Assembly (NCBI GenBank): GCA_020073185.1
Contig: JAIQFT010000061.1
Location: 1-43,840 of the forward strand
From: Terriglobia bacterium
GTDB taxonomy: Bacteria; Acidobacteriota; Terriglobia; Terriglobales; Acidobacteriaceae
Length of the DNA: 43,840 nucleotides
Direction of reading: 5' to 3'
Within the stretch, counting starts at the first letter, position 1, and each line of letters starts with the position of its first letter. The position numbers and the translations under genes were made by a program. Under the pieces are notes generated by a model that saw only the letters and a list, made by a program, of their open reading frames with translations, was not told the origin of the DNA and did no database searches. Of this stretch, positions 116 through 40,880 are shown in pieces.

Positions 116-905
116 TCAACTATGGATGGGACACCCTCTGCTCGTCCAGATAGCGGAACAGACGTAGGTTTCCAGATGATTCATAACCCGGTGAACAAAC
201 GGGTGCTCATTGAGGCTTTGGTACGCACTGGACTGATCGGTATAGAGATTTGTGTGATGCGCGACGTGCTTGAAAACCTGACTCTGCAGGACCACGCGTT
301 GAAGTGGTCGGCACAATTTTAGTGCGAATCTTACGGAGATCACGATCTAGAAAGCCCATCACAACAGTTTTTGTTTCCACAGCGCCAGAGGTGCCAGCCT
401 TGTGGACGATGCGGTTGCGCTTCCGCGAGTGCATATTCTTCATCTTCCCGCCGATGAAGCTCTCGTCCACTTCTACCTCGCCGCCAGGACCGCCCAGTTT
501 GTGAGTGTATGGGCCATCCTGCATCGCCAGCCGAATCCGATGCAGCATGAACCACGCACTCTTTTGTGTGACGCCAACGGCGCGATGAATCTCATAGCTG
601 CTCACGCCGTTTTTGCAATTCGCAATCATCCACATCGCGGTTAACCACTTGTCCAGCGGAATCGCGGAATCTTCCATCACAGTGCCGACCTTCACACTGA
701 ATTGCCGCTTGGGGTGTTTGCTTTTGCACTCCCACAGGCGGCGGGTGGGAATGAAGCTCACATCGCTGCTTCCGCAATTTGGACAGACCACCACGCCATC
801 GCGCCAGCGACGTGCTGAGATATACTTCAGGCAATTGTCGGGATTTGTGAAGTAGCGAATCGCTCCTTGCAGGGTAAGTGGCTCTTTCTCTTGCTGTTGT
901 TTCAT
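116..905 (-). pseudogene. IS1595-family transposase, frameshifted and internally deleted
   Basis: The N-terminal part (ATG at 905) reads as an IS1595-type transposase: an N-terminal helical region, a zinc ribbon (CPNCGSSD with a later Cys), then the DDE domain with first acidic residue in VDESFIGGK. Near position 300 the reading frame shifts; the neighbouring frame continues with LYTDQSSAY, which carries the second Asp. After NHLETYV the next recognisable piece is LFRYLDEQ (complement of 138-161), again in another frame. The segment expected between them, containing the catalytic Glu in an ENFWSLLKR-like motif, is missing. The gene is therefore dead by at least one frameshift and one deletion. 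No convincing terminal inverted repeats were found. The family call is confident; the exact ends are not. Confidence 0.85.
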
Positions 906-1055
906 GGCAAGAATAAGGTAGCACACTCAGTGAACTGAGTCAAGTATATTATCGCCAAATATATATTCGGGGACTGTAAAGAAAGTGCCGGCCTGATTCG
1001 TCCTTGCTACTTGGTCCTGGCCGGCGACCCGAGGAAAAACCTGGTAAGCCTTGAG

Positions 1056-1084
1056 TTGACGTTGCCCTCAAACGCCGTTAGAGT
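1056..1084 (+). promoter_or_regulatory. candidate sigma-70 type promoter for the secreted protein gene
   Basis: TTGACG (1056-1061) is separated by exactly 17 bp from TAGAGT (1079-1084). This lies 34 bp before the chosen GTG start at 1118. The -35 box is close to consensus and the -10 box is moderate. Confidence 0.45.
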
Positions 1085-1117
1085 CAAATTCTACGGAACG
1101 ACCTCGAGGTGACCCCG

Positions 1118-3112
1118 GTGAAAGCTACCCGTGCGCGTGTGCGTGTGTGGTGGTTGGCATGTCTGTTGGTAGTTATCGCGATCCCGACATTGGCGGAGGA
1201 CGGAAAGCAAGAAGTCAGCCTGACGCATGACTGGAGCCATCGTCACGTCGTTTACACGAATACACCCACTCAGATGAACGCGGCCATGGCAGCCACCAGG
1301 GATCCGCGCGCGCTCTCGTCTTACTTGAGGAGAGTGGTAGCGGCGCGCAACGCGAGAGAACGGCAGGAGGGGAGGCAGGAGAGGAGAACGGAGAAGCCGT
1401 TCGAGGTGGACTGGGCGTTTTCCATGGGCACGCCCAACACGGCGACGCCGATTGCCGCCAACCAGTACCCGGCAATCTTTACCCAGAACTTTGCTTCTCC
1501 AAGCTGTACCGCGGACTACCTGGTGATGCCGGTGAATGTCGCGGGCACGGCCACGGCAGCAAACCTGATCGGGGTGAACCAGTTGTACTCCAACGCCGCC
1601 AGAACGGGCTTGTGCAACACCGTAAGCGGGCCCTCCGTCCGGTTCGCGTACTTCAACGCGAGTGCAAATACGACTTCCGTTTCGACGTCTCTGGATGGGA
1701 CGAAGATCATCTGGGTGGAAAACTCCACACCCGCCAAGTTGCACGTTCTGGCCTGGAGGGCCGAAGGCACGGTGGCAGGACCGATCGCCCCAGCGGCCGC
1801 GGCGGGGGCACCGGTAGCAGGATCGGGCACCATGGCCACGGTGACCTTGAGCGGCAATGTCACCAACTCCTCGCCTTTCGTGGACTACGATCATGACGTG
1901 GCCTATGTCGGCGATAACAGTGGGAACCTCTACTGGATCACGAATGTGTTCTGCACGACACCGACCTGCCAGGCCGCACCGGTCGCACCCAGCCTGGATA
2001 CCACCGCTTGGGCGCCCAACGGCTTCGTCAACGTGGGGGCAGCAACGATATTGACCGCACCCGTGGCGGACGGTGTCACTGGCAACATCTATGTCGGCGG
2101 GGCAAACGGAACGCTATACGTGCGCAAAGGATCCGACGGAACTTCCGTGGGTACGGTTGCGGTGGGAAACGCCAACCAGGGTGGCATCAATAGTGCACCC
2201 ATCGTGGATGGCACCGGCGCCAGCGGCAACGAGTTGGTCTATGTCTTCGCGGGTGACGATCAGGGCGTGACAGGCGCGTTGAGCGCCGCGGTCGCAGTTC
2301 AGATCCAGGTCAGCCTGAGCACGGGAACGATCGGCACCGTCACTCGACAGAACATCGGACCGAGGAATGTGCAGCCCGCTCGCATGGGGGCGCTGAATGA
2401 TGCCTATTACACGGGTTCCGGCACGCCCCGGTTGTACGCCTGCGGGACGTTGGCCGGTGGTACCAGGCGGCGCCTTTACCGCATTCCTTTTAATGCCAGC
2501 AGGGTCATCGGTACTCCTGTCTCCGTCGGTAATCTGGGCACTAACACCAACCAATCCTGCTCGCCGCTCACCGCCTTCAACAACGGCACCAACGACCGGC
2601 TTTTCCTGACCCTGGGCACTAACAGAGTGCTGGATGACTTTGTCATCACCACCGATCTCACGAGCGCGACCTGCCCCAATGCGCCCACATGCATTCAGCA
2701 GTCCACGGGCACCGCCGGCACCGTCCTTACCAGCGGCGTCATCATTGATAACGGCGCCACCGGCACCGCCCAGGGCGCGAACATGTACTTTGGAAAGTCT
2801 GCCAGCGGCAACATCACGAACGGCAGTTGCTGGACCGGCACCAATAGGGCCCTGAGCGGCACCTCAACCAAGACGAATGGAGTCGGGACCTACTCGACGG
2901 GCGCCACCAACCATGGGCTGGCGATCGGCGAGACGGTTGCGATTGCCCTCAATACCAACGCTAACGTGAATGGCAACTGCACGGTGACAGCGACACCGAG
3001 CGCAACCACGTTCACTTGTACTTACACGACCATTAACAGCGGCTCAGGCACCGGCGGCAACGTCCGACTGGGCACTTGCGCCTTCAAGTTGACCCAGAAT
3101 GCTCTGCAGTGA
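1118..3112 (+). CDS. secreted hypothetical protein, probably beta-rich (propeller/Ig-like)
   Basis: This is a 664-residue protein with an N-terminal export signal: basic KATRARVRV, then a hydrophobic WWLACLLVVIAIP stretch ending near LAED. The rest is rich in Gly, Thr, Asn and Ala, with short repeated motifs such as DYDHDVAYVGDNSGNLYW and ADGVTGNIYVGGANGTLYV. These resemble blades of a beta-propeller, and the C-terminal third looks like an adhesin or Ig-like domain with paired cysteines. I infer an exported or surface protein; no enzyme motif is visible. The GTG at 1118 is preferred over the GTG at 1109 because GAGGT (1106-1110) then sits at normal ribosome-binding distance. It ends 60 bp before the RiPP precursor, so it could be co-transcribed with that operon, but a functional link is not shown. 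Confidence 0.7.
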   Translation: MKATRARVRVWWLACLLVVIAIPTLAEDGKQEVSLTHDWSHRHVVYTNTPTQMNAAMAATRDPRALSSYLRRVVAARNARERQEGRQERRTEKPFEVDWAFSMGTPNTATPIAANQYPAIFTQNFASPSCTADYLVMPVNVAGTATAANLIGVNQLYSNAARTGLCNTVSGPSVRFAYFNASANTTSVSTSLDGTKIIWVENSTPAKLHVLAWRAEGTVAGPIAPAAAAGAPVAGSGTMATVTLSGNVTNSSPFVDYDHDVAYVGDNSGNLYWITNVFCTTPTCQAAPVAPSLDTTAWAPNGFVNVGAATILTAPVADGVTGNIYVGGANGTLYVRKGSDGTSVGTVAVGNANQGGINSAPIVDGTGASGNELVYVFAGDDQGVTGALSAAVAVQIQVSLSTGTIGTVTRQNIGPRNVQPARMGALNDAYYTGSGTPRLYACGTLAGGTRRRLYRIPFNASRVIGTPVSVGNLGTNTNQSCSPLTAFNNGTNDRLFLTLGTNRVLDDFVITTDLTSATCPNAPTCIQQSTGTAGTVLTSGVIIDNGATGTAQGANMYFGKSASGNITNGSCWTGTNRALSGTSTKTNGVGTYSTGATNHGLAIGETVAIALNTNANVNGNCTVTATPSATTFTCTYTTINSGSGTGGNVRLGTCAFKLTQNALQ

Positions 3113-3172
3113 TACTGCAGGAAATTCGCGGATGGGTTATACAATCCGAAGAAGGGTGAAGTCCGGTGGGAT

Positions 3173-3340
3173 ATGTCTGAAAAAGCGGTGACTCGGCCAC
3201 ACGAATCAGCTCCGGCCGCTCGCAAGCCATACCAGAAGCCCTCGTTTCGCTACGAGCGGATCTTCGAAACCATGGCTCTGTCCTGCGGGAAGATCGATCC
3301 CACTCAGTTGCAATGCAGGAGCAATCGCAAGAATTCTTAG
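3173..3340 (+). CDS. RiPP precursor peptide of the radical SAM operon
   Basis: This 55-residue reading frame begins MSEKAVTRPH and lies directly before the peptidase, kinase, PqqD and radical SAM genes (10 bp gap to the next start). A charged leader contains KPYQKPSFRYERIFE, an Y-x-x-P-x-aromatic pattern like those bound by PqqD/RRE domains. It is followed by a compact region, TMALSCGKIDPTQLQC, and a polar tail ending NRKNS. The two cysteines (residues 38 and 48) are ten residues apart and are the natural candidates for thioether or other radical SAM crosslinks. It is too small to be an enzyme, and its position and composition fit a substrate. From memory, acidobacterial small proteins with an ETMALSCGK-like motif occur beside such genes; this was not searched. 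The product class is unknown. Confidence 0.72.
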   Translation: MSEKAVTRPHESAPAARKPYQKPSFRYERIFETMALSCGKIDPTQLQCRSNRKNS

Positions 3341-3349
3341 AGTGGAGAA

Positions 3350-3862
3350 ATGGTGGTGTCTACCGTATTGGCCGCGGACCAGCGGTGCAAGTGCAGCCTG
3401 GCGTCGGAAGTCCTCGGGCGTTTTGGTGAGCTTCGTCTTCAGGTCACCGGTTCAAGCATGTTGCCTTCGCTTTGGCCCGGTGACCTTCTGCTTATCCGCC
3501 GAGCCCAGTTGTCCGAGATCACCACGGGAGAGTTGGTGCTGTTCACGCGCCAGGAGCGTTTTTTTGTTCACCGGGTGGAGCGCGCCTTGGGAACCTGCCT
3601 ACTGACTCGGGGCGATTCGCTGGCCGCCACCGACGCTCCGGTGGGAGCTGACGAGTTCCTCGGCCGCGTGGTTTTCATCTCCCGTGAGGGCGCAACGCGT
3701 ACGCCAGCGGTTCTGAGTCCTTGCGGCCGCTGGCTCGCGGGTGCGGCGAGCCGCAGCACAATCTTCTGCAATTTCCTGCTGCGCCTGCGCGCGTTGTTCC
3801 TCCGCATTCCGCGGGTTTCCCTTTTCACGAGCATGCATCCGGAGGAAGTGTGCCCCAGCTAG
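3350..3862 (+). CDS. S24/S26-family peptidase, ER/SipW signal-peptidase type
   Basis: The 170-residue protein has the S26 signature VTGSSMLPSLWPGD with candidate nucleophile Ser36. It is followed by FFVHRV, where His74 stands at the position used as general base in ER/SipW-type signal peptidases, and by the later box TRGDSLAATD. No Lys general base of the bacterial LepB type is seen. There is no clear N-terminal membrane anchor, but a hydrophobic basic segment (FCNFLLRLRALFLRI) near the C-terminus could associate with the membrane. Placed between the precursor and the modifying enzymes, it is a good candidate for leader removal, which is inference. The ATG at 3350 is 10 bp after the precursor stop. 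Its 3' end overlaps the next gene by 13 bp. Confidence 0.8.
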   Translation: MVVSTVLAADQRCKCSLASEVLGRFGELRLQVTGSSMLPSLWPGDLLLIRRAQLSEITTGELVLFTRQERFFVHRVERALGTCLLTRGDSLAATDAPVGADEFLGRVVFISREGATRTPAVLSPCGRWLAGAASRSTIFCNFLLRLRALFLRIPRVSLFTSMHPEEVCPS

Positions 3863-4662
3863 CGACACCGCCAGCCTATGCGGTAGCGGTGGAAGTCGGA
3901 GGGATCCCAGTCCTGCTGCGCACCTCAGATGCAGACTTCGCACGGATGTTGGAGGAGCGCTACTGCGGCTTCGTGAACCCCGCTGCAGGCGCCGGATTCG
4001 AATTCGACGTGGACCTTGCTTCTCCCAGCGGGATGGGTCCGGACGATGGGGTTCAGGTCCGCTGCCGGAACCGGCGTTGGTCGTTCCAGCGCGGCGATTT
4101 CAGGGCAGAATGGGAGCCGGGTTGCGGACGCGGCCACATCCGCCAGTCACCGAATCCGTATTCGGTCGACTCGGTCCTGCGCATCGTCCACTCCATCATC
4201 CTGGCCGGGGAAGGTGGTTTTTTGCTCCATGCCGCGAGCGTGGTGAGGGACGGCCGCGCGTTCCTGTTCTCCGGGCTCTCGGGAGCAGGCAAGACCACGA
4301 TCGCACGCCTGGCGCTGCCCGATGTCACACTGTTGACCGACGAGGTCTCGTATGTGCGGCGCCGTCCCCAGGGATACGACGCCTTCGGCACCCCATTCGC
4401 GGGCGAGCTGGGCCGCGTGGGAGAAAACGTCTCCGCGCCCATCAGCACGGTTTACCTGCTGGCCAAGGGCCCGGAGAACTGCATTGATCCCGTGCCACCG
4501 TCCGAAGCCGTGCATCGGCTGATGCGCAACATCCTGTTCTTTGCCGAGGAACCGGCGCTGGTGCAGCGCGTCTTCCATGCTTGCTGTGAATTCGTGGCCA
4601 GGGTTTCGGTCCAACGCCTGACGTTTTTTCCCGACCAGCGAGTCTGGGAGTTGATCCGATGA
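3850..4662 (+). CDS. HPr kinase/phosphorylase-like P-loop protein of the RiPP operon
   Basis: The 270-residue protein carries an HprK-type C-terminal domain: LLHAASVVRDGRAFLFSG, a P-loop GLSGAGKTT (about residues 142-150), and LLTDEVSYV, a Walker-B-like Asp-Glu. It lacks the N-terminal domain of true HPr kinases. HprK-like proteins are recurrent in RiPP loci, and in paeninodin-type lasso clusters a member phosphorylates the peptide. Here its substrate is unknown, and a phosphorylating or nucleotide-dependent chaperone role is inferred. The GTG at 3850 follows GGAGGA closely and overlaps the peptidase gene. The stop overlaps the PqqD start (ATGA), implying translational coupling. Confidence 0.75.
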   Translation: MPQLATPPAYAVAVEVGGIPVLLRTSDADFARMLEERYCGFVNPAAGAGFEFDVDLASPSGMGPDDGVQVRCRNRRWSFQRGDFRAEWEPGCGRGHIRQSPNPYSVDSVLRIVHSIILAGEGGFLLHAASVVRDGRAFLFSGLSGAGKTTIARLALPDVTLLTDEVSYVRRRPQGYDAFGTPFAGELGRVGENVSAPISTVYLLAKGPENCIDPVPPSEAVHRLMRNILFFAEEPALVQRVFHACCEFVARVSVQRLTFFPDQRVWELIR

Positions 4663-4973
4663 CGGCGAAGTACATCGCCCACAGCAGGGCCATCGCCGCC
4701 CGCAAACTCGGCGACGAGTTGGTCATCATGTCCGCTGTGGACTCGACCTTGTACACGCTCAACCCGGTCGCGACCGCGATCTGGCAGGCGGCCGATGGCC
4801 GCACTCCACTTTCCGAGATTGTCGAGGCGGCGGTGTGCGGCCAGTACGAGGTGGAACCGGAGATCGCCTACGCCGACGCGGAAGCGCTGGTGAACGAACT
4901 GGCCAGCCATGGAATCCTACTGGTTTCCGAACAGCCAATCGCCGAGGCGCGCGCCCCCCAGGAGACCCGATGA
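4659..4973 (+). CDS. PqqD-family peptide-binding chaperone (RRE)
   Basis: This 104-residue PqqD-like protein has the typical pattern of a short beta region (DELVIMSAVDSTLYTLNPVATAIWQ), then helices with LSEIV and a C-terminal ELASHGIL helix. PqqD-family proteins bind the leader of a RiPP precursor and present it to a radical SAM enzyme. It overlaps the kinase gene by 4 bp and the radical SAM gene by 4 bp (ATGA at both ends), so the three are translated as a unit. Its likely ligand is the Y-x-x-P region of the 55-residue peptide at 3173-3340. The two lasso-like precursors at 42.8-43.4 kb also carry Y-x-x-P motifs, but use in trans is speculation. Confidence 0.88.
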   Translation: MTAKYIAHSRAIAARKLGDELVIMSAVDSTLYTLNPVATAIWQAADGRTPLSEIVEAAVCGQYEVEPEIAYADAEALVNELASHGILLVSEQPIAEARAPQETR

Positions 4974-6073
4974 GCCTGATGGCGGAGCTGAACGCGAAGG
5001 CGCTGGGGCTGGGAGTGCCCCTCGCCGCTCATGTTGACGTTACCTACCGCTGCAACGAGCGTTGCGAGCACTGCTACCTGGAGCACGATGACAAGGGCGA
5101 GATGACGACGGCGGAGATCGTGGACATCCTCGGCCAACTCGCCGATGCCGGCGTGTTGTTCCTGACGATCAGCGGCGGCGAACCGCTGCTGCGCCGCGAT
5201 CTTTTCGAGATCCTGGAACGCGCCCGCGCTCTTCTGTTCAACGTGAAACTGAAGACCAACGCGGTCATGATCCGCGAGCCCGAGGCACAGCGCATCCGGG
5301 CACTCGGCGTGGAGCAGGTGCAGATCAGCGTTTATTCGCACCGCGCGGAGGTCCACGACGGCATCACCAAGCTGCCGGGCTCGCTCCAGAAGACGCTGCG
5401 CGCCATCGAGTTCCTGCACTCGCAAGGGGTCAAGGTCACGATAGCAAATGTTCTCATGCGCCCCAACTTGCCCGACGCCAGCGGCGTGCAGCGCCTGGCC
5501 GCGGCGATGGGAGTGGGGTACACGCTCGACCCGACCATCACGCCCATGATGAACGGCGGCACCGGCGTGCTGGCCCTGCGCGTACCTGGCGAGGCGCTGC
5601 GCAAGGCGTTTCACGATCCCGCGCTGGTGGGCAACGTGGACGAGTACTGCGCTCCGCCGCCGGTGGCCGACGAAGACGCGCTCAGCCAGATCCCGTGCGG
5701 CGCCGGCCATACTTCCTGCTACATCTCGCCCTACGCGGAGGTTTATCCTTGCGTGCAGTTTCCGCTGCCCAGCGGCAACCTGCGCCGGCAAAGCTTCCTC
5801 GACATTTGGCGCAACTCAGCGAAGCTGAATCAAGTGCGCTCCATCACGGCGCGCGACCTGCCCACGTGCTCATCGTGCGTGCACGTCTCATCGTGCACGC
5901 GGTGCCCGGGGCTGGCGTTTCTGGAAGGCAACATGCGCGGCCCGTCCACCGCCGATTGCGAGAAGTCGTTTGCGCGGACGGGAATCCCATCGGCGAACAT
6001 GTTGGCCAAGCAAGGCGCGAAGCAGCGGCCCACCTTGCCGGGCCTGGTGCAGATCGATATGGCCGCCGCCTGA
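4970..6073 (+). CDS. radical SAM/SPASM peptide-modifying enzyme
   Basis: The 367-residue enzyme has the radical SAM cluster motif CNERCEHC (Cys28, Cys32, Cys35) after VDVTYR, and the GGEP motif in TISGGEPLLRRD. Its C-terminal SPASM-type region has many cysteines: IPCGAGHTSC, YPCVQF, then CSSC-x5-C-x2-C and a final DCEKS. SPASM enzymes of this group bind auxiliary Fe-S clusters and install C-C or C-S crosslinks in ribosomal peptides. With the upstream PqqD protein and the two-cysteine precursor, a crosslinking role is the best inference; the exact bond cannot be read from sequence. The ATG at 4970 overlaps the PqqD stop. An upstream in-frame extension into the PqqD gene is unlikely to be translated. 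Confidence 0.88.
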   Translation: MSLMAELNAKALGLGVPLAAHVDVTYRCNERCEHCYLEHDDKGEMTTAEIVDILGQLADAGVLFLTISGGEPLLRRDLFEILERARALLFNVKLKTNAVMIREPEAQRIRALGVEQVQISVYSHRAEVHDGITKLPGSLQKTLRAIEFLHSQGVKVTIANVLMRPNLPDASGVQRLAAAMGVGYTLDPTITPMMNGGTGVLALRVPGEALRKAFHDPALVGNVDEYCAPPPVADEDALSQIPCGAGHTSCYISPYAEVYPCVQFPLPSGNLRRQSFLDIWRNSAKLNQVRSITARDLPTCSSCVHVSSCTRCPGLAFLEGNMRGPSTADCEKSFARTGIPSANMLAKQGAKQRPTLPGLVQIDMAAA

Positions 6074-6171
6074 CGCGTCGGGCGAAGTCAATCGATCCAG
6101 ATTCTGTTGGCCGCCGCGCGGTCGCTACCGAGAAAGCCGGCACTACACCCGCGGGCCGCTGATCTGGCAGC

Positions 6172-7773
6172 TCAGCGCCACTCCCACTCAATGAAGCCGG
6201 GCTTCACGTCCGCCATCGCATTCACGATCAGCTCCACGAGACCGCCATAGAGAATCCGGTTCTGTTCCCACAGCTTGTAGTGCGCCAGCATGTCGCGGAA
6301 CTGCCCCTTGCAGTTGCTGCAGGGCGCGCAGAGATACTTGGGAGTTTCCGGTTCCAAGCAGTCGGAAAATGCGTTCAGCACCTGCTCCAGCTTTTTGCGC
6401 CCAGCCACATGAAACCGCCAGTCGGGAAAATTGTGTCCGCTCATGATGGCAAAGCCGCTGCCGCCGCCGCAGCAGTAATTGTTCACACCGTGCGGCTCCA
6501 TTTCCCGGAACTGCGGGCACAAAGCGCGCACCACTTCGCGTTGCGGCTCGACCACGCCCATTAACCGCACCAGATTGCAGGGATCGTGCAAGGTCACGGG
6601 AAAGTCATTGCGGGAAGGATCGAACTGGATGCGCCCGCTCATGACGATGTCGCGCAGCAAGGTGAGGGAACTCTCGCGCGGAACGTTCAGGTCACCGCTC
6701 AGCAGGCGGTCGGCGATCACGCACAGCGCCTTGTGCGCGTGGCCACATTCCCCGACGACGATCTTCTTGACCTTGAGCTGGCGCGCGATTTCCGCGTGTT
6801 GCAACGCGACGCGGGCGAATTGCACGTCGTCGTACCACAGGCCGTAATTGATGGAATCATAGCCCGCCAGCTCCGACGACATGGTCCACTTCACTCCCGC
6901 CACGTTCAGGATCAGCGCGAAGGCGCCCGGATTCTCCGGCCACGCCATGATCTCGCCGGCATTGTGAATCAGCAGTACATCCGCGCCTTCGACGTCCCAC
7001 GGTGTGCGCACCTCGATGCCGGTCCTCTCGCTAATGTCCTCATCAATGAAGGCGATATTGTCCTTCACCACCTCCGGGCTCATGCCGGTTGACGAGCCGA
7101 CCTTTAACTGCAGCATGGACCCTTGCTGGTGCAGTTCCTTGGCTGCGATTCCCATTTCCTGGCTGAACAGCTTTCTGAGCTCGTGGGCGACCAGGCCGTT
7201 GTCGGCCCCGATCGGGCAGGTCTGCGCGCAACGGCGGCACAGGTTGCAGCGATACGACAATTCAATCAGCCGCGCCACCAGCGGCCAGTTCAATTCGATT
7301 TCGCCGTGCTGCCACGCCGATAGCAGGCCGCCGTGCTTGACGTATTTGAAGTAGAGCCGCCGCAGGATTTCCGACCGGAACACAGGGCGGTAGAGCTCGT
7401 TCCGGCCGCTGGCTTCAAAGATGTGGCACGATTCCGCGCACGTCTGGCAGCGCGTGCAGTGCTCCATGGTCAGCAGCAGGGGCTGCAGAAACGTCCAGTT
7501 GTTTTCCCGGCTAAACAACTTTTCCAGACCGGAGAGAAACTGCGCTACCAGGCGCCGCTCTTCGGCCGCCGTTGGCGGGTGCGGGACGCTGACCGCGCAA
7601 GTGTCATCCAGCCCACATTCGTACTTGTCCCGGATCTGCGGTGCGAGCGCTCCCCACGCCCGGTCATGGCCGTCCAGCGGGTGAGGCAGGGGCATCAGGT
7701 CACGGTTCTCGAGATGAGCGACAGGTTCGCGATCGGGGCGAGAAAGATCCGCGATGTTCAACCGGCCTTTCAC
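6172..7773 (-). CDS. DsrK/HdrD/TmcB-like Fe-S oxidoreductase
   Basis: The 533-residue protein has two 4Fe-4S motifs, CTRCQTCAESCH and CNLCRRCAQTCP. These are followed by two cysteine-rich CCG-type domains ending in VNNYCCGGGSGF and YLCAPCSNCKGQF, the signature of heterodisulfide-reductase-like catalytic modules (HdrD, DsrK, TmcB). It should sit on the cytoplasmic face and exchange electrons with the membrane cytochrome b encoded just upstream. Translation is coupled: the GTG start overlaps the stop of the cytochrome gene (GTGA), with AGGAGG at good distance. No DsrJ, DsrO or DsrP partners are present, so this is a two-subunit quinone-linked module rather than a full Dsr complex. Its cytoplasmic partner is unknown. 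Confidence 0.82.
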   Translation of the reverse strand: MKGRLNIADLSRPDREPVAHLENRDLMPLPHPLDGHDRAWGALAPQIRDKYECGLDDTCAVSVPHPPTAAEERRLVAQFLSGLEKLFSRENNWTFLQPLLLTMEHCTRCQTCAESCHIFEASGRNELYRPVFRSEILRRLYFKYVKHGGLLSAWQHGEIELNWPLVARLIELSYRCNLCRRCAQTCPIGADNGLVAHELRKLFSQEMGIAAKELHQQGSMLQLKVGSSTGMSPEVVKDNIAFIDEDISERTGIEVRTPWDVEGADVLLIHNAGEIMAWPENPGAFALILNVAGVKWTMSSELAGYDSINYGLWYDDVQFARVALQHAEIARQLKVKKIVVGECGHAHKALCVIADRLLSGDLNVPRESSLTLLRDIVMSGRIQFDPSRNDFPVTLHDPCNLVRLMGVVEPQREVVRALCPQFREMEPHGVNNYCCGGGSGFAIMSGHNFPDWRFHVAGRKKLEQVLNAFSDCLEPETPKYLCAPCSNCKGQFRDMLAHYKLWEQNRILYGGLVELIVNAMADVKPGFIEWEWR

Positions 7774-8693
7774 TTGCGAACCTCCTGCGCGGGACGCATC
7801 GCCGCAATCTCCGCCCAGGTCCTGTGCCCGTCGGCCCCGATGTGCGCCGCCGCCCAGGTCGGCTGGTAGGCCAGTTGCTTGGCGAGTTTCGCTTCGATCG
7901 GCCCGCCGCGCAGGTTCTCTCGGTCATCCCAGCGCACCGCGTGGTAGGTAAAGTACTTCGCGATGAAGTGCGCCATGTGCGTGAACGGTATGTAGGCCAC
8001 CAGCGCCGAGGCGAGCATGAGGCCAACCGCGAAGCCGGTGCTGAGGACCAGGGAAGTGTCAAACGTTGCCAGCCCCCGCAAGACCGCGCTGGCACTGGCG
8101 GTTCCTGGGCCGCGTACGAGATATCCGGCGGCGACGAGGCCGTACGTCAGGATGAAAAAGTGCAAATTGAAAATGTCGGCCGCGCTGGTGTAGTTCTTCA
8201 GTTCAGGATCGGTAAGCCGGTGGAACAACAGAGCTACCGCTCCGGACAACGTCATCACGACGCCGGCGTAAGCCGTGGCGTGATACAAGCCGCGCATCCA
8301 GAAAACGAAGCTCGCATGCGAAGGTCCGCCCAACGACGCCCCAGCGGCGATCAGCAACCCAGTAGCGATCGTCAGGTAGAGGCCGGCATGGAACAGGAAC
8401 GACGCGTACCACAGCCGGCGGTTGAATTCCCACAACCCTCTCAGGAAGGCGATTTCCGGGAGCGTGGCACGCAATTCGCCGCGCCAGTTGAAGTGTGGCG
8501 GCCTTGTCGACCGGTTGCTGGTTTCGAACGAGGAACCTCCGTATGCGGCGCGTTCCGGGTTCTCATGCGGAACCGGATACAACTCCCATCGCAGGTGGAT
8601 TGGCGCTCGGGCGTACCGCACCACACGGAGAAGGCATCCGGCGAGAAAGATCAGTAAGCTAAGATAAATGCCGAGGTAAACTGCAATCGTCAT
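7770..8693 (-). CDS. NarI/DsrM/TmcC-like membrane cytochrome b
   Basis: The 307-residue membrane protein has an N-terminal segment (MTIAVYLGIYLSLLIFLAG), a soluble loop, and four further hydrophobic helices. Histidines lie within or next to them (SFLFHAGLYLTIATG, YHATAYAGVVM, FNLHFFILTYG, FTHMAHFIAKYF), as expected for a di-haem NarI-type subunit. Such subunits oxidise or reduce membrane quinone and pass electrons to a cytoplasmic Fe-S partner, here the downstream DsrK-like protein. It is the first gene of its unit. A GTGA-N6-TCAC palindrome lies 79 bp upstream. Confidence 0.8.
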   Translation of the reverse strand: MTIAVYLGIYLSLLIFLAGCLLRVVRYARAPIHLRWELYPVPHENPERAAYGGSSFETSNRSTRPPHFNWRGELRATLPEIAFLRGLWEFNRRLWYASFLFHAGLYLTIATGLLIAAGASLGGPSHASFVFWMRGLYHATAYAGVVMTLSGAVALLFHRLTDPELKNYTSAADIFNLHFFILTYGLVAAGYLVRGPGTASASAVLRGLATFDTSLVLSTGFAVGLMLASALVAYIPFTHMAHFIAKYFTYHAVRWDDRENLRGGPIEAKLAKQLAYQPTWAAAHIGADGHRTWAEIAAMRPAQEVRK

Positions 8694-9061
8694 ACCTGCC
8701 TCCGGACAGTGCTGGGGTCCGGACCACCATTGCTTCTCCTACAGCGTACCTCCCTGACCTCTCCCCGCCGTGTGACCTGCATCACGTGCCGTGGCCCAAG
8801 GCCGTCCGCCACCCAGGGCGGGGCAGACTGGTTGCGATTTCGCTCCGCTGGCCAGCCGCTGACGGGCACAAGATCGCCCTGGCTACAGGGTTGTGCTGGA
8901 AGTCTGCTCGACAATTCTCCAGCGCGCTGACGGAAGCAGAGTCAGCCGTCCCTGCGTCGCTCTGCTGCCCGCATCGAAGGGCGGAAGCTGTGGCACCGCA
9001 AAGCTGCTCAAGTTGCGGCGCGGCATCCTGGAGGCCAGCGGCGACACCGACTCTCACTTCA
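8694..9061. other. non-coding interval upstream of the NarI-like gene
   Basis: No gene is supported in these 368 bp; open frames here lack ribosome sites and family features. The interval contains the palindromic operator candidate at 8772-8785 and the untranslated end of the ArsR transcript. Confidence 0.6.
8772..8785 (-). promoter_or_regulatory. CRP/FNR-type operator candidate upstream of the NarI/DsrK-like pair
   Basis: GTGACCTGCATCAC is a GTGA-N6-TCAC palindrome 79 bp before the start at 8693. On the + strand it continues as CATCACGTG, the same 9-mer found at the second site at 15557-15570. The half-sites match CRP-type recognition. The binding protein is not in this window. Confidence 0.5.
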
Positions 9062-9400
9062 TCACACCGCCAGCGAATGGCGCTTCTCAATTTGCGTTCG
9101 CAACACGTCGCGAATGATCCGGCAGGCGCTCTTGACCTGCGGCATGGCTAGGGAGCAGAGCATTTGCTTGCCTTGGCGACGGGTGGCCACGACGCCGGCG
9201 GTGCGCAGGACCGCCAGATGCTGCGACAGGTTCGGGTTACTGATGTGCAAGCGCTGCTGGAGCTCGGAGGCGAACCAATCGCGTTCGGCCAGCAGATCGA
9301 GGAGTTGGAGGCGGATGGGATTCGCGAACGCTTTGCAGATGCGGGATTGAAGGACGTAAATCTCCGGGTCAACCGGTTTGCCGTTGCTGTTCTGCACTAT
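9062..9400 (-). CDS. ArsR-family transcriptional regulator
   Basis: The 112-residue protein is a winged-helix ArsR/SmtB regulator: KAFANPIRLQLLDLLAE, then the recognition helix ISNPNLSQHLAVLRTAGVVATRRQG. The arsenic-binding ELCVCDL motif is absent. Its cysteines are Cys21, Cys81 and Cys92, so a thiol- or redox-based signal is possible but unproven. The GTG at 9400 is chosen because it lies 1 bp after the cytochrome b stop with GAGGTGA at proper distance. It yields a normal family length and avoids a long overlap with the preceding gene. It is the last gene of the cytochrome c/molybdoenzyme unit and may feed back on it. Confidence 0.83.
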   Translation of the reverse strand: MVQNSNGKPVDPEIYVLQSRICKAFANPIRLQLLDLLAERDWFASELQQRLHISNPNLSQHLAVLRTAGVVATRRQGKQMLCSLAMPQVKSACRIIRDVLRTQIEKRHSLAV

Positions 9401-9401
9401 C

Positions 9402-10247
9402 TCACCTCGCCCCGTTCGCAGCGCTGGCTTCCGGTTTCGACCCGTTGCCCGTTTCGAGCGTGTCATGCGAGCGGTCCTCCTCTGGGGATATTGTGTGTGC
9501 GCCATCTGCTTGCTGCATTTTAACTTCACGCCACCATTTGTAGTGGTGGCGAAATGCATACAGCTCGCTGACCATGCCGGTGATCATCGAATAAAACGCC
9601 GGACGCTCCTCGGGAAAAACCGCGCCCATGTAGACGTGGATCATCAGGCCGGAAACGACCATGCCCACGGCGACGAAATGCAGCACCATCGCCCACTGCA
9701 CCAGGAAGGCGCTGAACAGGTGAAACGTCATGATGGCGCCGGTAACCATGATCAGCGGCACCATGGCGTACACCATTACGGCATAGAGTTTCTGCCCGGC
9801 ATTATAAGCTCCCTGCGGCGGGAGACCCTCGGAGGAGCGGCCGACGAGACGCAGCACGCGAATGCGCAACCAGCGGAAGTCATCTGCGTCGAGACCGATT
9901 TCTTTTTTCAGGACTTCGGTGTGCAGGTAATTGCGCCAGCCGAAGATAGCGTAAACGCCGAAGACGATCATCCAGGTGAGGCCGGCGGCAATGTGCACCC
10001 GCAGCAGGTTGGCACGCGAGCCGAAGATGCTCTCCATCATGACCAGGTACCAATGCGGCATGAAAGCAAACGGAGGCGTGACTACGATCGCGGAGCCAGT
10101 TGCCAGTTCGATGAGCCATACGAGCGCATTGAACCAGTGAAGCAGGACGATGGCTACCTGGTGCTTCTTTACCTGGCGTAGCGCAAGAGTCTCGGCTTGT
10201 TCGGCGGTAAGCGCGTAGGGAGAAGTGGAAACGATGTCGGTGGCCAT
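9402..10247 (-). CDS. FdnI-like cytochrome b membrane subunit
   Basis: The 281-residue protein has four hydrophobic helices with histidines placed as in formate-dehydrogenase gamma subunits: VAIVLLHWFNALVWL, LLRVHIAAGLTWMIVF, a third helix MVYAMVPLIMVTGAIM, and VLHFVAVGMVVSGLMIHVYMG. It would carry two b haems and link the quinone pool to the periplasmic ferredoxin/molybdoenzyme pair encoded just upstream. It replaces the NrfD-type subunit common in polysulfide and thiosulfate reductases. The ATG at 10247 lies 7 bp after the ferredoxin gene. The C-terminal tail is polar and variable. Confidence 0.83.
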   Translation of the reverse strand: MATDIVSTSPYALTAEQAETLALRQVKKHQVAIVLLHWFNALVWLIELATGSAIVVTPPFAFMPHWYLVMMESIFGSRANLLRVHIAAGLTWMIVFGVYAIFGWRNYLHTEVLKKEIGLDADDFRWLRIRVLRLVGRSSEGLPPQGAYNAGQKLYAVMVYAMVPLIMVTGAIMTFHLFSAFLVQWAMVLHFVAVGMVVSGLMIHVYMGAVFPEERPAFYSMITGMVSELYAFRHHYKWWREVKMQQADGAHTISPEEDRSHDTLETGNGSKPEASAANGAR

Positions 10248-10254
10248 GTGACCT

Positions 10255-10986
10255 CTATTCGTCAGACTGCTTTTCGCCGACTGACAACTGGTGGAAGAAT
10301 GCGCCTGCCTGTCCGAGGAACGTTGTACCCACAGCAAGGTAGACGAGCTTCTTCGCCAGCCTCGTCCATACGAAGGCCGCAGCAACAGTTCTGGGTGGTG
10401 TGGGAGCGAATGAAGCGGCAGCCATCTCCAGGTGTTCGGGCTTGCCGGTGTAATAGACGTTGGGTCCGATGGCTATATCGGCAGTTTCCATGCGCTTTGC
10501 GCCCGCGCGATAAACCAGGCGGAACACTTCGCTGCTGGGGTCCTCCATGTCACCAAACACTTTGGCCTTAGCCGGACATGTAGCCACGCACGCGGGTTCG
10601 AGCCCATGTTCCAGGCGGGGCGCGCAGAAGTCGCACTTGTCCACCACACCGCGATCGGGGTTCACGTAGCGTGCGCCATAGGGACACGCCGCCACGCAAC
10701 TACCGCAGCCGATGCAAAGGTCGCGGTTGACGCGCACGGCGCCGTTGGCATCCTGCCAGGTTGCGCCCGTCGGGCAGGCGGGAAGACAGGAGGGACGCTC
10801 ACATTGGTTGCATTGCGAGACGAAGAACGCCGAGGTGAAGTTCGGATACGTCCCGCGCAACCCGGCCGGGCGCACGCGGGTTCGGGCATAGCCATTGGGC
10901 ACATCCCACTCCGACTTGCACGCCACCGTGCATGACTGGCAACCTACGCAGCGTTCCTGATCGATGACCATCGCATATCTGGCCAT
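10255..10986 (-). CDS. four-cluster ferredoxin subunit with C-terminal membrane anchor
   Basis: The 243-residue protein has four cysteine groups of the FdnH/PsrB/DmsB type: CVGCQSCTVAC, CNQCERPSCLPACP, CIGCGSCVAACP and CDFCAPRLEHGLEPACVATCP, enough for four 4Fe-4S clusters. A hydrophobic segment near the C-terminus (KLVYLAVGTTFLGQAGAFF) is a probable single membrane helix as in FdnH. It should connect the molybdoenzyme to the cytochrome b. The start ATG at 10986 is 5 bp after the molybdoenzyme stop; an upstream in-frame start inside that gene is less likely. It probably travels with its Tat-exported partner because it has no signal of its own. Confidence 0.88.
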   Translation of the reverse strand: MARYAMVIDQERCVGCQSCTVACKSEWDVPNGYARTRVRPAGLRGTYPNFTSAFFVSQCNQCERPSCLPACPTGATWQDANGAVRVNRDLCIGCGSCVAACPYGARYVNPDRGVVDKCDFCAPRLEHGLEPACVATCPAKAKVFGDMEDPSSEVFRLVYRAGAKRMETADIAIGPNVYYTGKPEHLEMAAASFAPTPPRTVAAAFVWTRLAKKLVYLAVGTTFLGQAGAFFHQLSVGEKQSDE

Positions 10987-10991
10987 GCTTG

Positions 10992-13205
10992 TTAACCTTT
11001 CTCCACCGGCAGCACGCACACAAAATTGACCCGCATGCCGGTCGTACCGGTGAGCGGGTCGATGGCAACACGCGTCATGAGGGCATTATCAGAAAACCCG
11101 TGCTGGTAAGCCTTTTTGAGACCGGGCGCCTGCGGGCCGAAACCATGCACGGTGTAGGCGACGTCGCTGCGGATGGCCGGCGTCACTTTGACCGTCACCT
11201 CGGGACTCTTCACGCTATCCTGGTTTTCCAGAACGACCTTCTGCCCGTCGTGCACTCCGATTCGCTTCGCGGCTTGGCTACTGATCCACACCGGGTTCTC
11301 AGGCATGAGATCGTCGAGCCAGGCATTATTCGCCGAGCGCGAAAACGAATGCACCGGCGCGCGGCCGTAAATCAGCCGCAAGTATCCGTCGGGCGGGTCC
11401 GGCACCGCCTCGTACTTGGGCAGCGCATCGAGCTTCAAGTCCTTCAGGACCGACGACACCAGTTCGATCTTGCCGCTCTGCGTCGGAAAAAGAGGAGGAT
11501 CGGTTTCGCTGCGGCCCTCGATGTAGGGCTTGCCGGGAAACGAAACTGCGCCTAACGATTTCAGTTCCGTCTCGCTGATATTGAGAGGAGCGATCAGTTG
11601 GCGGAGATGATCGTCGGGGTCACGCCACGGAAAGTAGTCCTCGAGTCGCAAGCGCTTGGCCATTTGCTTGGCAATCCACCAGCCCGGCTTGGACTCGTAC
11701 ATAGGCTCGACCGCGGGTTGACGGATTGAAATATAGGGCCGCTTATGGGTGGTGACGATCGCCGGCGGATCGTAGCGCTCCAGGTAGGTCGCCTCGGGTA
11801 GGACCAGGTCGGCGTAGCGGGTCATTTCCATGGGCAAAACGTCCACCACCGCCATGAACTCCAGGTTCTTGATTGCTGCGACGGTCTTCTGGCGCATGGG
11901 GACGCTTTCCAGAATGTTCTGCCCGTATACCACCCATCCTTTAATAGGATACGGGTTGCCGGTCCGGGTAGCTTCGATGAGGCCGTGTGTGAGGCCATAG
12001 GCGTCCTCGGTAGCCAGCGGATAGACATTTCCGACGCGGTCGGCAGCGCCTTTTTCGGACTCCGGCATGGGTGGCAGGGGAATCTTGCCCGTGGAGAGTT
12101 TGGTGGGCAGGTAAATTCCGCCTTTGCGGCCGTACGCGCCGAGCAGCGCCGTCAAGATCGCCATCGCCCGAGCACGCTGCGTGTCATTGCCATACCAAGT
12201 AACGTGCCGTCCGGGATGAATCGCGACTGCGGGTCTGGCTTCCGCCATGAGGTGTGCCGTTTCGCGAATTTGCGCGGCAGAGAGTTCGGTGATGGGCGCC
12301 GCCCACTCAGGAGTGAACTGCTCTGCGTGCTTCGCCAGTTCCGCGAAGCCCGTGGCGTATTGATCGAGGTAGGCTTTGTCGTAGAGCTTCTCGGAAATGA
12401 CAACATTCATCCACGCCAGCAACAACGCGGTATCGGTGCCCGGCTTAATCGGCAGCCAGAAGTTCGCCTTCGATGCGGCGGTGGAAAAACGCGGATCGAC
12501 AACGATGAGCTTGGCGCCGCGCGCCAGGCCCTCGGCGAAGGCAGTGACCTGCGACGTAAAGACGTTCTCGCCGATGTGGCTGCCGATGAGAACGATGCAT
12601 TGGGATTCTTCGAGGTCCACCGGCTCCGGCGAATTCACGGGGCGACCGAAGGTAAGCTGGTAGCCGATATCGCGGGGCCCCCGGCATTGCGCAAACGCCG
12701 GCTCCGCCGAGTTGGGCGTGCCATAGGCTTTCATCAGGGTGGCAAAGAAACCCGAGTGGACGCCGTGGGGAAAGAGCGCGACGCTCTCCGGACCGTACTT
12801 CTGCTTTAGGTCTTGGAGACGTGTGGCAAGAAAGTCCAGCGCCTCGTCCCAGGAAACGCGCTTGAACTTTGCTTCGCCGCGATTGCCGGTACGGATCTGC
12901 GGATACTTCAGGCGGTCGGGATCGTTGAGCAGCGCCACGCCGGCGTTGCCGCGAGCGCAGAGCTTGCCTTTGGTCATGGGGTGATGAGGGTTGCCCTGCA
13001 GCTTGAGCAGCTTGCCGGCAACGACTTCCGCCATCACGCCGCAGCGCCAAAAACACATCTCGCAGTTGGTCGCGATCTGCTGGACGCGCGTCTCTCCGCG
13101 CCAGCCGGGCGGATGCACGTCAGCCACGGAGGTGGTGGCGGTAGTTATTCCGGCCGCAAGCGCAGTTCCCTGCAGAAACCTGCGGCGCGTGAACCTGGTA
13201 GCCAT
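10992..13205 (-). CDS. Tat-exported molybdopterin oxidoreductase (PsrA/PhsA-like, DMSO reductase family)
   Basis: The 737-residue protein begins with a twin-arginine signal, TRRRFLQGTALAAG. An N-terminal 4Fe-4S motif follows: CEMCFWRC with CARG (Cys48, 51, 55, 83). A Cys at about residue 174 (FAQCRGPRDIG) sits where Psr/Phs-type enzymes ligate molybdenum. Later molybdopterin-binding blocks include GSHIGENVF, VVDPRFSTAASKA and GRKGGIYLP. The family covers polysulfide, thiosulfate, tetrathionate and arsenate reductases, so the substrate cannot be named. Neighbours supply a ferredoxin, quinone-linked cytochrome b, cytochrome c and porin, giving a complete periplasmic respiratory module. The ATG at 13205 is chosen because it places the Tat motif at the N-terminus; the preceding 71 bp hold a strong hairpin. 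Confidence 0.87.
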   Translation of the reverse strand: MATRFTRRRFLQGTALAAGITTATTSVADVHPPGWRGETRVQQIATNCEMCFWRCGVMAEVVAGKLLKLQGNPHHPMTKGKLCARGNAGVALLNDPDRLKYPQIRTGNRGEAKFKRVSWDEALDFLATRLQDLKQKYGPESVALFPHGVHSGFFATLMKAYGTPNSAEPAFAQCRGPRDIGYQLTFGRPVNSPEPVDLEESQCIVLIGSHIGENVFTSQVTAFAEGLARGAKLIVVDPRFSTAASKANFWLPIKPGTDTALLLAWMNVVISEKLYDKAYLDQYATGFAELAKHAEQFTPEWAAPITELSAAQIRETAHLMAEARPAVAIHPGRHVTWYGNDTQRARAMAILTALLGAYGRKGGIYLPTKLSTGKIPLPPMPESEKGAADRVGNVYPLATEDAYGLTHGLIEATRTGNPYPIKGWVVYGQNILESVPMRQKTVAAIKNLEFMAVVDVLPMEMTRYADLVLPEATYLERYDPPAIVTTHKRPYISIRQPAVEPMYESKPGWWIAKQMAKRLRLEDYFPWRDPDDHLRQLIAPLNISETELKSLGAVSFPGKPYIEGRSETDPPLFPTQSGKIELVSSVLKDLKLDALPKYEAVPDPPDGYLRLIYGRAPVHSFSRSANNAWLDDLMPENPVWISSQAAKRIGVHDGQKVVLENQDSVKSPEVTVKVTPAIRSDVAYTVHGFGPQAPGLKKAYQHGFSDNALMTRVAIDPLTGTTGMRVNFVCVLPVEKG

Positions 13206-13227
13206 TGGTCCTCCACAACATTGCGAA

Positions 13228-13268
13228 CCTGAGGCGGCGCGTGGGACGCAGGTCCCACACGCCTCAGG
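13228..13268 (-). repeat. strong intercistronic hairpin between porin and molybdoenzyme genes
   Basis: Two nested perfect arms occur: CCTGAGGC (13228-13235) with GCCTCAGG (13261-13268), and GTGGGAC (13241-13247) with GTCCCAC (13252-13258). There is no run of T, so it is not a standard terminator. It may protect the porin mRNA end or lower expression of the downstream gene. Its core resembles the hairpin after gvpA at 21654-21678 (shared GGGACRCAG), suggesting a dispersed palindromic element. Confidence 0.65.
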
Positions 13269-13276
13269 AGGTCTGC

Positions 13277-15115
13277 CTAGAAGCGCGCTGTCAGACCCAA
13301 GGTGAACATGTTCGCCGCGTCGTAGGTCGGGAATCCGAGCAAAGGCACCGAATCCAGCCGCTTGGGAGCGCCAAGATGCCAGCCGGAGCCGGACCACGTG
13401 TAGTTGTAGCGTTGAAACGCGGCCTTGAAGATGAAGCGCTCGTTGATGCGGTGCGTCAGGTACGTTTCATACACTTCGCCGCGCGTGTTCGTCTTGGGCG
13501 CAATGATGTCGTCTTCGGCATTGGCAAAGTTGAACCAATACTTGGAACCGTGGTTCATCTCGAAGCCGACTTTGGTTTTGCCGTCGTTTTGCGGGAAGCT
13601 GTAACGCAGTCCCACGTAGATCATCTGGCCTTCGTGATTGGTGGGAACATCAAATGGATCGCTGCCCATGCCGCCGAAGGGTGTGGTGACGCCATTGGGG
13701 CGCAGGCTGCTCCAGTTGCCACTCACGAACATATCCACCGGGCCAAACTTCTTTTGCGCGACAATTCCGTACAGGTTGATTCCGCCCAGGTTCGCCGATG
13801 GTGTGTAACGCATGATGACCGGCGCTCCGATGGCGTCGCCGGTGATGGGGTTGTTGGGAAGGACGATTTCTCCGTTGAACCCGTCGGTGACATTCCACGC
13901 GTGTGCGGCCAGCGCCTGAACAAATGCGGTGTCGCTTTCATACAGGTCGCTCATGACACCCAAGAGGTGAACGTCCTTGAGACGGTCGGCCGGCGTTTTC
14001 AGCAGGTTCCCATTGCCAAAGCCGGAGGAATAGCCGACGCCGTAGCACGCCCGGACCGTGGTTTTTTCGGTGATGTGATACCCCAAGGTCATGCCGTCGT
14101 ACTGGTAATCGAACAAAGCGCCGGTGGGCGTGCCGCCGCGGGGTTCGTCTTGCCGGAAATTGAGCGGCGGGCCATCGGTGGACGGGCGGCGTCCGATGGA
14201 GAAGTACATCTTCGATCCGCCGATATTGGTCCAGTTGAAGAACGCGCGCTCGACGCGCAGCATGTCGCCGGAAGGGACGCGCGTGGTCGTGCCGTCAATC
14301 GCCAGCGTGTTGGGCTGGCCATTGAACATCTGCACGCCGGTGGAGTCCCCGAATACCTTGTACATGCTGAGTCGTGCATCCACGCTGACGTTGTCGGACA
14401 CCTTGCCGTTGAAGCGCAGCCGCAGGCGATTGGTGAAGAGGGCGTCGGTGTTGTCCGAGTACCCGGGGGTGTACACCCCGGGAGCTTGCATCAGGTAACC
14501 CATCAACTGCTGTTGCATGGCCGGCGGGAACTGTCCCATCGATTGCTTCAACTGGTTGAAGGTCAGGTTGTTGGTGAAGTATTGGTACGAGCCGTAGTTG
14601 CCCGCCACCTGGCTATCCAGGAGCCCCTTAAACTGTGCGGGCGTCATGGTTTGCAACATGGCTGGGTCAAAGGGCATGCCGAGCCCGCCCTGGGCGGTGG
14701 GCGCGGTCAACCACAAGGTGCGCACCACCAGGTTCTGGAGGTTCATGCCGTCATAGTGAGCCGGCACGTTGCCGCGGATGGTGTGCGCTTCGAAGCGATA
14801 GTCCCCGCTCCAGTTCAGCCGGTCGAGCGCGGATTTCTTCTCGGTGCTGTTGACCCGGTCATCCAAGTCCTTGACCTGGTCTTTGAGGTCCGCCGCCGAT
14901 ACCGTGCCTTCGGCAGGCGTCTGCTGCTTCGATGCTGCGGTTTTCTGTCGCTCCTGGGCGGCGATGCGCGCCTCCAGGGCAACAATGGTTTTCTTCAGGT
15001 TATCGACCTCCTGGCGGAGCTCGGAGGAATCGTTGCCGGGCGCTGTCTGTTGCGCCCACGCTCCGGGTCCCGCCAGCAGGACGACCGATAAGAGACTGGC
15101 AAGAAATGTACGCAT
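13277..15115 (-). CDS. outer-membrane porin, DUF3373-like
   Basis: The 612-residue protein has a signal peptide (MRTFLASLLSVVLLAGPGAWAQ) and a coiled-coil segment (SSELRQEVDNLKKTIVALEARIAAQE) followed by a second short coil. A long beta-barrel region follows with alternating aromatic strands (GDYRFEAHT, KMYFSIGRRP, MTLGYHITEKTTVRACYG). It ends in Phe, typical of outer-membrane proteins. The coil plus barrel plan matches DUF3373-type porins. It lies second in the respiratory unit, between cytochrome c and the Tat molybdoenzyme, so substrate entry or support of electron flow across the outer membrane is plausible inference. The family assignment comes from overall pattern, not a search. Confidence 0.72.
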   Translation of the reverse strand: MRTFLASLLSVVLLAGPGAWAQQTAPGNDSSELRQEVDNLKKTIVALEARIAAQERQKTAASKQQTPAEGTVSAADLKDQVKDLDDRVNSTEKKSALDRLNWSGDYRFEAHTIRGNVPAHYDGMNLQNLVVRTLWLTAPTAQGGLGMPFDPAMLQTMTPAQFKGLLDSQVAGNYGSYQYFTNNLTFNQLKQSMGQFPPAMQQQLMGYLMQAPGVYTPGYSDNTDALFTNRLRLRFNGKVSDNVSVDARLSMYKVFGDSTGVQMFNGQPNTLAIDGTTTRVPSGDMLRVERAFFNWTNIGGSKMYFSIGRRPSTDGPPLNFRQDEPRGGTPTGALFDYQYDGMTLGYHITEKTTVRACYGVGYSSGFGNGNLLKTPADRLKDVHLLGVMSDLYESDTAFVQALAAHAWNVTDGFNGEIVLPNNPITGDAIGAPVIMRYTPSANLGGINLYGIVAQKKFGPVDMFVSGNWSSLRPNGVTTPFGGMGSDPFDVPTNHEGQMIYVGLRYSFPQNDGKTKVGFEMNHGSKYWFNFANAEDDIIAPKTNTRGEVYETYLTHRINERFIFKAAFQRYNYTWSGSGWHLGAPKRLDSVPLLGFPTYDAANMFTLGLTARF

Positions 15116-19791: not shown

Positions 19792-19864
19792 AAATTTTCT
19801 CCTTGGCGTGCATGCGGGCGCGGGGAGATAGAGGCTGGACCCGCGCCGTCATTTTCCACCCCGG

Positions 19865-20167: not shown

Positions 20168-20169
20168 GG

Positions 20170-21234: not shown

Positions 21235-21305
21235 GGTTCCACTCCTTTCGAGCTTTGGGGTCAGGGCTGGCGCCGGACGCTACCGCCACGGCGCCCGCCC
21301 GCCGG

Positions 21306-21599: not shown

Positions 21600-21653
21600 G
21601 GTCACCCTCCTTATTCTGTGTGTTGTTCCGTCACTAAGGCCGCCTGAACCAAA

Positions 21654-40874: not shown

Positions 40875-40880
40875 GGTTCC

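Follow-up and report, generated by a model that had tools for sequence, protein, structure and literature searches.

A kinase, PqqD and radical SAM RiPP operon of Acidobacteriota and its probable association with a beta-propeller protein

The first 43,840 nucleotides of contig JAIQFT010000061.1 from a Terriglobia bacterium, hereafter the window, carry at 3173-6073 a five-gene operon for a ribosomally synthesised and post-translationally modified peptide (RiPP): a small precursor, an S24/S26 peptidase, an HprK-like kinase, a PqqD protein and a radical S-adenosylmethionine (rSAM) enzyme with a SPASM domain. We consider it probable that the operon belongs to a RiPP system widespread in Acidobacteriota and that its product works jointly with a secreted beta-propeller protein encoded just upstream (UP, for upstream propeller). 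The best reading of the family is that it unites a chassis of the phosphorylated-lasso type (a recognition element, a C-terminal-Ser kinase and sometimes a nucleotidyltransferase) with radical-SAM chemistry. The combination of kinase, PqqD, rSAM and S26-type peptidase lies outside the family models tested. If this reading is true, a phylum-scale RiPP family exists in a poorly studied soil group, and a kinase module of lasso peptides, acting on a C-terminal Ser, has been joined to radical-SAM chemistry. The role it suggests, that of a genetically encoded modified peptide serving secreted propeller proteins, has to our knowledge rarely been proposed for RiPPs.

Conservation of the precursor and its enzymes

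Gene content, conservation, linkage and co-occurrence were computed on the 76 loci that one scan of genome contigs returned as relatives (titles nearly all Acidobacteria or Terriglobia), on 399 genomes of the window's class, Terriglobia, searched with profiles, and on 297 genomes of other Acidobacteriota classes. These records are mutually related, and part of the 65 precursors aligned below stem from near relatives. One relative of the operon (L076) sits on a contig titled as a Ramlibacter metagenome-assembled genome, outside Acidobacteria, by transfer or mis-binning.

An earlier note on this DNA had proposed a five-gene RiPP operon with overlapping enzyme genes, and the open reading frames (ORFs), the domain searches and the overlaps of 13, 4 and 4 nucleotides between successive enzyme genes agree with it. 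The window's precursor has 55 residues, with YQKP at residues 20-23, Cys38, Cys48 and a final Ser55, and no Pfam or NCBIfam model matches it at E 0.1. Its profile matches 59 of the 76 loci at E < 1e-10; the 17 loci that it misses include six that begin inside the operon (L027, L051, L059, L076, L083, L087), an interrupted one (L082) and two remote rSAM matches (L090, L091). We aligned 65 precursors, namely the window's, those of 58 of the 59 matched loci and six from further genomes, omitting two copies, the interrupted one of L082 and that of L044, whose frame diverges past the first Cys. Y20, P23, C38, C48 and the C-terminal S55 are invariant in all 65; A35, L36 and K40 are each kept in 64 and T33 in 59, and residue 37 is Ser in 33, Ala in 20, Thr in five and another residue in seven (S/A/T/G in 59). 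Y20 and the first core Cys lie 18 apart in every precursor, the two Cys 10 apart in 53, and the stretch from Cys38 to Ser55 spans 18 residues in 52. The Y-x-x-P leader motif and the two core cysteines, picked out before from the window alone, are features of the family. The earlier note had also asked whether homologous loci keep the peptide, conserved, beside the enzymes, and they do: apart from the 59 matched loci, precursor and rSAM occur together in 53 of the 399 class genomes (rSAM in 57, precursor in 55, UP in 43), and 53 of the 66 precursor matches there lie within 4.5 kb of the rSAM gene. The window's genome also holds another precursor-like ORF (L117; G000:C29, 6208-6690); it leaves the family before the second Cys, and none of the four enzymes was detected in the 13 kb fetched.

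The peptidase matches Peptidase_S24 (3e-6) and, below the cut-off, sigpep_I_arch (1.7e-9). Its Ser36, His74, Asp89 and Asp95 are kept in 77 of 77 sequences, a pattern consistent with a signal peptidase of the Ser-His (SipW/archaeal-like) type, in line with the previous naming of it as SipW-type. The kinase-like protein matches ScmC (2.4e-8) and HprK_rel_A (3.4e-6), both below the cut-off; in its P-loop region G142 and S144 are present in 83 of 83 sequences and K148 in 82, and Asp164-Glu165 in all 83. The maturase matches Radical_SAM (8.6e-23) and SPASM (3.9e-10), and its CxxxCxxC cysteines (Cys27, Cys31, Cys34) and SPASM cysteines (Cys242, 260, 299, 302, 308 and 311; numbering from residue 2) are invariant in 16 aligned rows. 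Its start is ATG 4970, giving 367 residues; the start at 4835 in the mechanical ORF list need not be invoked. The nearest solved relatives of the maturase by sequence are the sactisynthase SkfB (1.2e-24) and then PqqE (1e-18), and the mycofactocin maturase model is among its nearest NCBIfam matches.

From this gene content we infer the following pathway. PqqD would bind and present the YxxP leader, and the SPASM rSAM enzyme would modify the core, most likely through the two invariant cysteines, with a thioether or some different crosslink as the result. Phosphorylation of the invariant C-terminal Ser55 would fall to the HprK-like kinase, and a sugar could possibly be added to that phosphate in the 29 of 76 loci that encode an NTP_transf_5-type protein (checked against Pfam for one member). 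The S26-type Ser-His peptidase would remove the leader; the likeliest cut is A-L-[S/A] / C38, which agrees with the -3/-1 small-residue rule of signal peptidases. The product may be exported, in some loci perhaps by a neighbouring ATP-binding cassette (ABC-2) transporter, and could meet the secreted UP as a ligand, a cofactor-like group or a structural partner.

The earlier note had considered a crosslinked and phosphorylated product, which is plausible because SkfB is the nearest rSAM relative, Ser55 is invariant and a C-terminal kinase has a precedent in the lasso peptide paeninodin, where, according to passages of PMC8498205, an HPr-kinase homologue phosphorylates the C-terminal Ser. Both prerequisites of a paeninodin-type kinase are present in the family, namely a C-terminal Ser in all 65 substrates and a conserved kinase P-loop. 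In BsfA, passages of PMC10368454 place the kinase target at Ser3 of the ring and not at the C-terminus, so a C-terminal site in the window's family is likely, not certain.

Linkage and co-occurrence with the propeller protein

The earlier note overlooked the UP gene, which ends 60 nucleotides upstream of the precursor. The scan for terminators found no plus-strand terminator-like site within 3112-3173; a promoter-like site lies at 3089-3116, immediately ahead of the precursor, and three such sites fall within 900-6300 against 1.4 expected by chance. The N-terminus of UP looks like a signal peptide by eye, and the protein is probably secreted. It has no Pfam or NCBIfam match at E 0.1. A first AlphaFold2 model reached a mean confidence (pLDDT) of 59, and a deeper alignment raised it to 81, with a predicted template-modelling score (pTM) of 0.85; Foldseek lists many BamB chains among the best matches of this model, with TM-scores by target of up to 0.69.

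UP homologues occur in 33 of the 76 relative loci, where 33 of 34 copies share the strand of the rSAM gene, with 25 of them upstream of it and eight downstream. Among the 66 precursor matches of the class genomes, 26 have a UP gene less than 1 kb away, always on the same strand and upstream in 25. UP and rSAM share 37 genomes, and 39 of the 43 genomes with UP carry rSAM or the precursor. In the main rSAM clade, defined as the 36 highest-scoring genomes by a main/second split made after the scores were seen, 35 genomes have UP, sometimes on another contig. Four rSAM-positive genomes, whose low-ranked rSAM matches are mostly fragmentary, were left out of both clade groups; two have UP (G180, G215) and two lack it (G059, G380). 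In a separate search of 41 relatives, UP was found in six genomes, all rSAM-positive, and a seventh (G017), whose rSAM is broken, lacks UP. UP tracks the operon across genomes, which changes the likely function of the latter, and these linkage results support a partnership between peptide and propeller. One genome (G346) has two extra UP-precursor pairs, and none of the four enzymes was detected in the 14-16 kb fetched there. The window's genome holds a second UP gene (L101; G000:C5:23839-25743), with no significant precursor match within the 14 kb fetched. In L041, UP and precursor share a stop-to-stop frame; we rejected a single fused protein in favour of a frameshift or a chance frame because the intervening stretch looks, by eye, like frames that precede the precursor in relatives and are not UP.

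Propellers of another kind occur outside the main clade. Eight loci of the second clade (L130, L131, L137-L142) carry HprK, PqqD, rSAM and precursor genes followed by a gene for a large protein with a PQQ-like propeller, recognised by Pfam in L130 and L131 (below the cut-off in L131) and by homology in the remaining six. The L130 protein also bears CBM96/DNRLRE, and that of L131 a Disaggr-repeat match (below cut-off). Several of these loci have an NTP_transf_5-type homologue ahead of HprK, the S26 gene follows in those that reach far enough (L131, L138-L141), and L131 and L140 each hold two tandem precursor-propeller pairs.

In the 297 genomes of other classes, an rSAM match was found in 23, of which 18 score only 1e-71 to 1e-87, and UP was found only in five, all carrying the main rSAM. 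We fetched 17 of the 18 loci with the weaker rSAM. HprK was detected in 15, and eight (L158, L160-L163, L168, L169, L172) encode, beside the rSAM, a large protein related to the propeller proteins of the second clade, the rSAM there usually being accompanied by kinase and PqqD. Pfam recognises the propeller in five of these eight (L161, L163, L168, L169, L172) and none in L158, L160 and L162; further domains of the large proteins are Ig-like (L158, L161), subtilase (L163), RGI-lyase (L172) and InhA-MAM (L169). In L164 and L171 a protein with C25-peptidase and fn3 domains adjoins the rSAM instead, and L165 looks alike by eye. As a control for chance, the propeller query gave 13 matches in nine of 18 genomes, eight of which are no farther than about 6 kb from the rSAM gene. 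PqqD itself ends in a core-like Cys-x9-Cys tail in L163, L168, L169 and L172, and three of these four tails terminate in Ser. In L158 and L160-L162 the precursor candidates carry W-x-x-P, or a W-containing motif much like it, and their two Cys lie closer together; a terminal Ser occurs in one of the four. The two-cysteine, terminal-Ser stretch and these PqqD tails make the biosynthesis directly testable.

Several results weigh against the reading proposed here. No UP was found in the 17 second-clade genomes, and neither kind of propeller has a homologue in six loci of genus g45 (L111, L132, L143-L146). Of the 17 other-class loci, just two (L157, L167) gave an S26 match, and outside the window's class the terminal Ser is absent from L158, L160, L162, L167, L169 and L170; given such variable C-termini, there is good ground to propose a phosphorylated terminal Ser in the window's class only. 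UP also occurs with neither rSAM nor precursor in four genomes (G242, 95% complete; G211, 84%; G342, 65%; G378, 85%), and the Fisher p-values for co-occurrence ignore shared ancestry and overstate significance. Over 29 loci, UP distances do not covary with precursor-core distances beyond the rSAM distance (partial r 0.06, a value reached by 227 of 999 permutations), and in several genomes UP genes outnumber precursors. Given these last two results, generic use of the peptide as a ligand or cofactor-like group is at least as likely as one-to-one pairing.

We could speculate further that the peptide, rather than being a free natural product, serves outside the cell as a dedicated ligand or prosthetic peptide of secreted proteins that bear a propeller, and that a single kinase-PqqD-rSAM toolkit equips varied secreted effectors throughout the phylum: a stand-alone propeller, proteins with CBM96 or Ig domains, a subtilase and peptidases of the C25 type. 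This wider proposal is tentative, and we regard it as possible rather than probable.

Known systems and other explanations

Phosphorylated lasso peptides (paeninodin, pseudomycoidin, BsfA) share with the window a YxxP-type leader, a PqqD-like protein and an HPr-kinase homologue, and the paeninodin type also shares the C-terminal Ser. Some of their clusters encode a nucleotidyltransferase and an ABC transporter, and some loci of the window's family the NTP_transf_5 protein. In contrast to them, the window's operon has an rSAM/SPASM enzyme, an S26-type peptidase, two invariant Cys and a propeller partner. The SPASM maturases of RiPPs (SkfB, SuiB, CteB; PqqE, mycofactocin) likewise combine rSAM and SPASM with a small Cys-bearing precursor; here, however, a kinase and a Ser-His peptidase accompany the rSAM, which scores below the cut-off of each NCBIfam model among the matches listed (25 of 69). 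SynChlorMet (ScmC, ScmD, ScmE, ScmF) brings HprK-like, PqqD-like and rSAM proteins together in one named system with detectable similarity, but, compared by models only, all scores fall below the cut-offs (ScmC 33.7 against 125 bits, ScmD 27.9 against 100, ScmE 95.7 against 400). GeoRSP, the best NCBIfam match of the window's PqqD, also pairs a PqqD-like protein with rSAM/SPASM, again below cut-off (PqqD 31 against 100 bits, rSAM 111 against 400). Membership in SynChlorMet or GeoRSP was rejected on these cut-offs. A search of open-licence papers found no mention of "SynChlorMet", none that mentions both "HprK" and "PqqD", and, judged by titles and the openings of abstracts, no description of such a system. 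The unusual enzyme set claimed by the earlier note stands in part: no Pfam or NCBIfam family model tested covers the whole combination, but its oddity was overstated, because a recognition element and an HprK-like kinase (sometimes with a nucleotidyltransferase) also tailor phosphorylated lasso peptides, and the SynChlorMet components are similar, if below cut-off.

The strongest competing explanation is an ordinary secreted bioactive RiPP, an antimicrobial or a signal, with the propeller as immunity, receptor or capture protein or just a frequent neighbour. Its patchy presence (57 of 399 genomes) and the missing covariation with UP would fit, as would the ABC-2 permease homologue found in 19 of 76 loci, directly upstream and on the same strand in 18; permease and UP are both present only in L058, where the permease is distant and on the other strand. 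Two genomes with an ABC-type locus without an adjoining UP (G031, G287) nevertheless have UP on another contig, and the core, with C38, C48 and S55 invariant and A35, L36 and K40 nearly so, is strongly conserved, which sets it apart from most arms-race peptides. We regard this explanation as unlikely. In 28 of 76 loci, chiefly those that lack an adjoining UP, a regulator with GGDEF, HD, GAF and PilZ domains lies downstream of the operon on the opposite strand (for example L026:7330-10290, minus strand).

Less probable still is that the peptide is a mere scaffold of a small redox cofactor, following the logic of PQQ or mycofactocin, and that the propeller is a quinoprotein-like user enzyme. PqqD, a SPASM rSAM and a propeller do recall PQQ biosynthesis plus quinoproteins, the nearest rSAM matches include PqqE and the mycofactocin model, and one precursor can coexist with several UPs. 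However, the 18-residue stretch from Cys38 to Ser55 suggests that a larger peptide survives, we know of no counterpart of the HprK-like kinase in PQQ biosynthesis, and the 50 Foldseek matches listed for UP, many of them BamB chains, contain no PQQ dehydrogenase.

A degenerate or unusual lasso peptide, to which the leader, PqqD, kinase, terminal Ser and weak matches of the precursor profile to two lasso-type precursors of the window (E 0.007 and 0.008) might point, is largely refuted and very improbable: neither a lasso cyclase nor a B2 protease is among the eight genes scanned at 1109-8693 (the cyclase scan covered this part of the window and not the flanks in relatives), an rSAM and a leader protease of S24/S26 type rather than the transglutaminase-fold B2 being found instead, positions 41-46 show no conserved counterpart of the acidic ring acceptor that lasso peptides have some 7-9 residues into the core, if the core start is rightly placed (Asp and Glu are not among the two commonest residues there, and Glu at 45 occurs in 5 of 65), and the window's lasso cyclase lies about 35 kb away with precursors of its own. 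That lasso cluster (38474-43429) comprises an NTP_transf_5 protein (38474-40093, minus strand), the cyclase (40881-42827, plus strand; NF033535, 691 bits against a cut-off of 525) and two precursor candidates with Y-x-x-P-E-L leaders (42824-43000 and about 43270-43429, plus strand).

Coordinates and other genes of the window

Table 1. Features of the RiPP operon and of the adjoining propeller gene, in window positions.
Feature	Position	Strand	Basis
Precursor peptide, 55 aa	3173..3340	+	ORF list, 65-row alignment
Leader recognition motif Y20-Q-K-P23	3230..3241	+	Tyr and Pro in 65/65
Putative core A35-L-S-C38-G-K ... C48 ... S55	3275..3340	+	Conservation; leader cut predicted after residue 37 or 34
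S24/S26-type Ser-His peptidase, putative leader peptidase	3350..3862	+	Pfam/NCBIfam, conserved Ser36/His74/Asp89/Asp95
HprK/ScmC-like putative kinase, GTG start	3850..4662	+	NCBIfam, P-loop conservation
PqqD-type RiPP recognition element	4659..4973	+	PF05402 4.7e-16
Radical SAM/SPASM peptide maturase	4970..6073	+	Pfam/NCBIfam, conserved Cys
UP, BamB-like beta-propeller, 667 aa, GTG start	1109..3112	+	AlphaFold2 model and Foldseek

At the left end of the window, an IS1595-type (ISXO2-like) transposase gene occupies 207-926 on the minus strand. A possible electron-transfer module of anaerobic respiration lies at 6172-13397 on the minus strand; its genes resemble DsrK/HmcF (below cut-off), the gamma subunit of nitrate reductase, a molybdopterin oxidoreductase and, judged by eye, a ferredoxin-type protein. 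Gas-vesicle genes follow at 18994-23861, also on the minus strand, between genes for ArsA-type and CDC48-type ATPases; they include three GvpL/GvpF proteins recognised by Pfam and, named by eye, a GvpN-like AAA ATPase (20170-21234) and a GvpA-like ORF (21711-21929).

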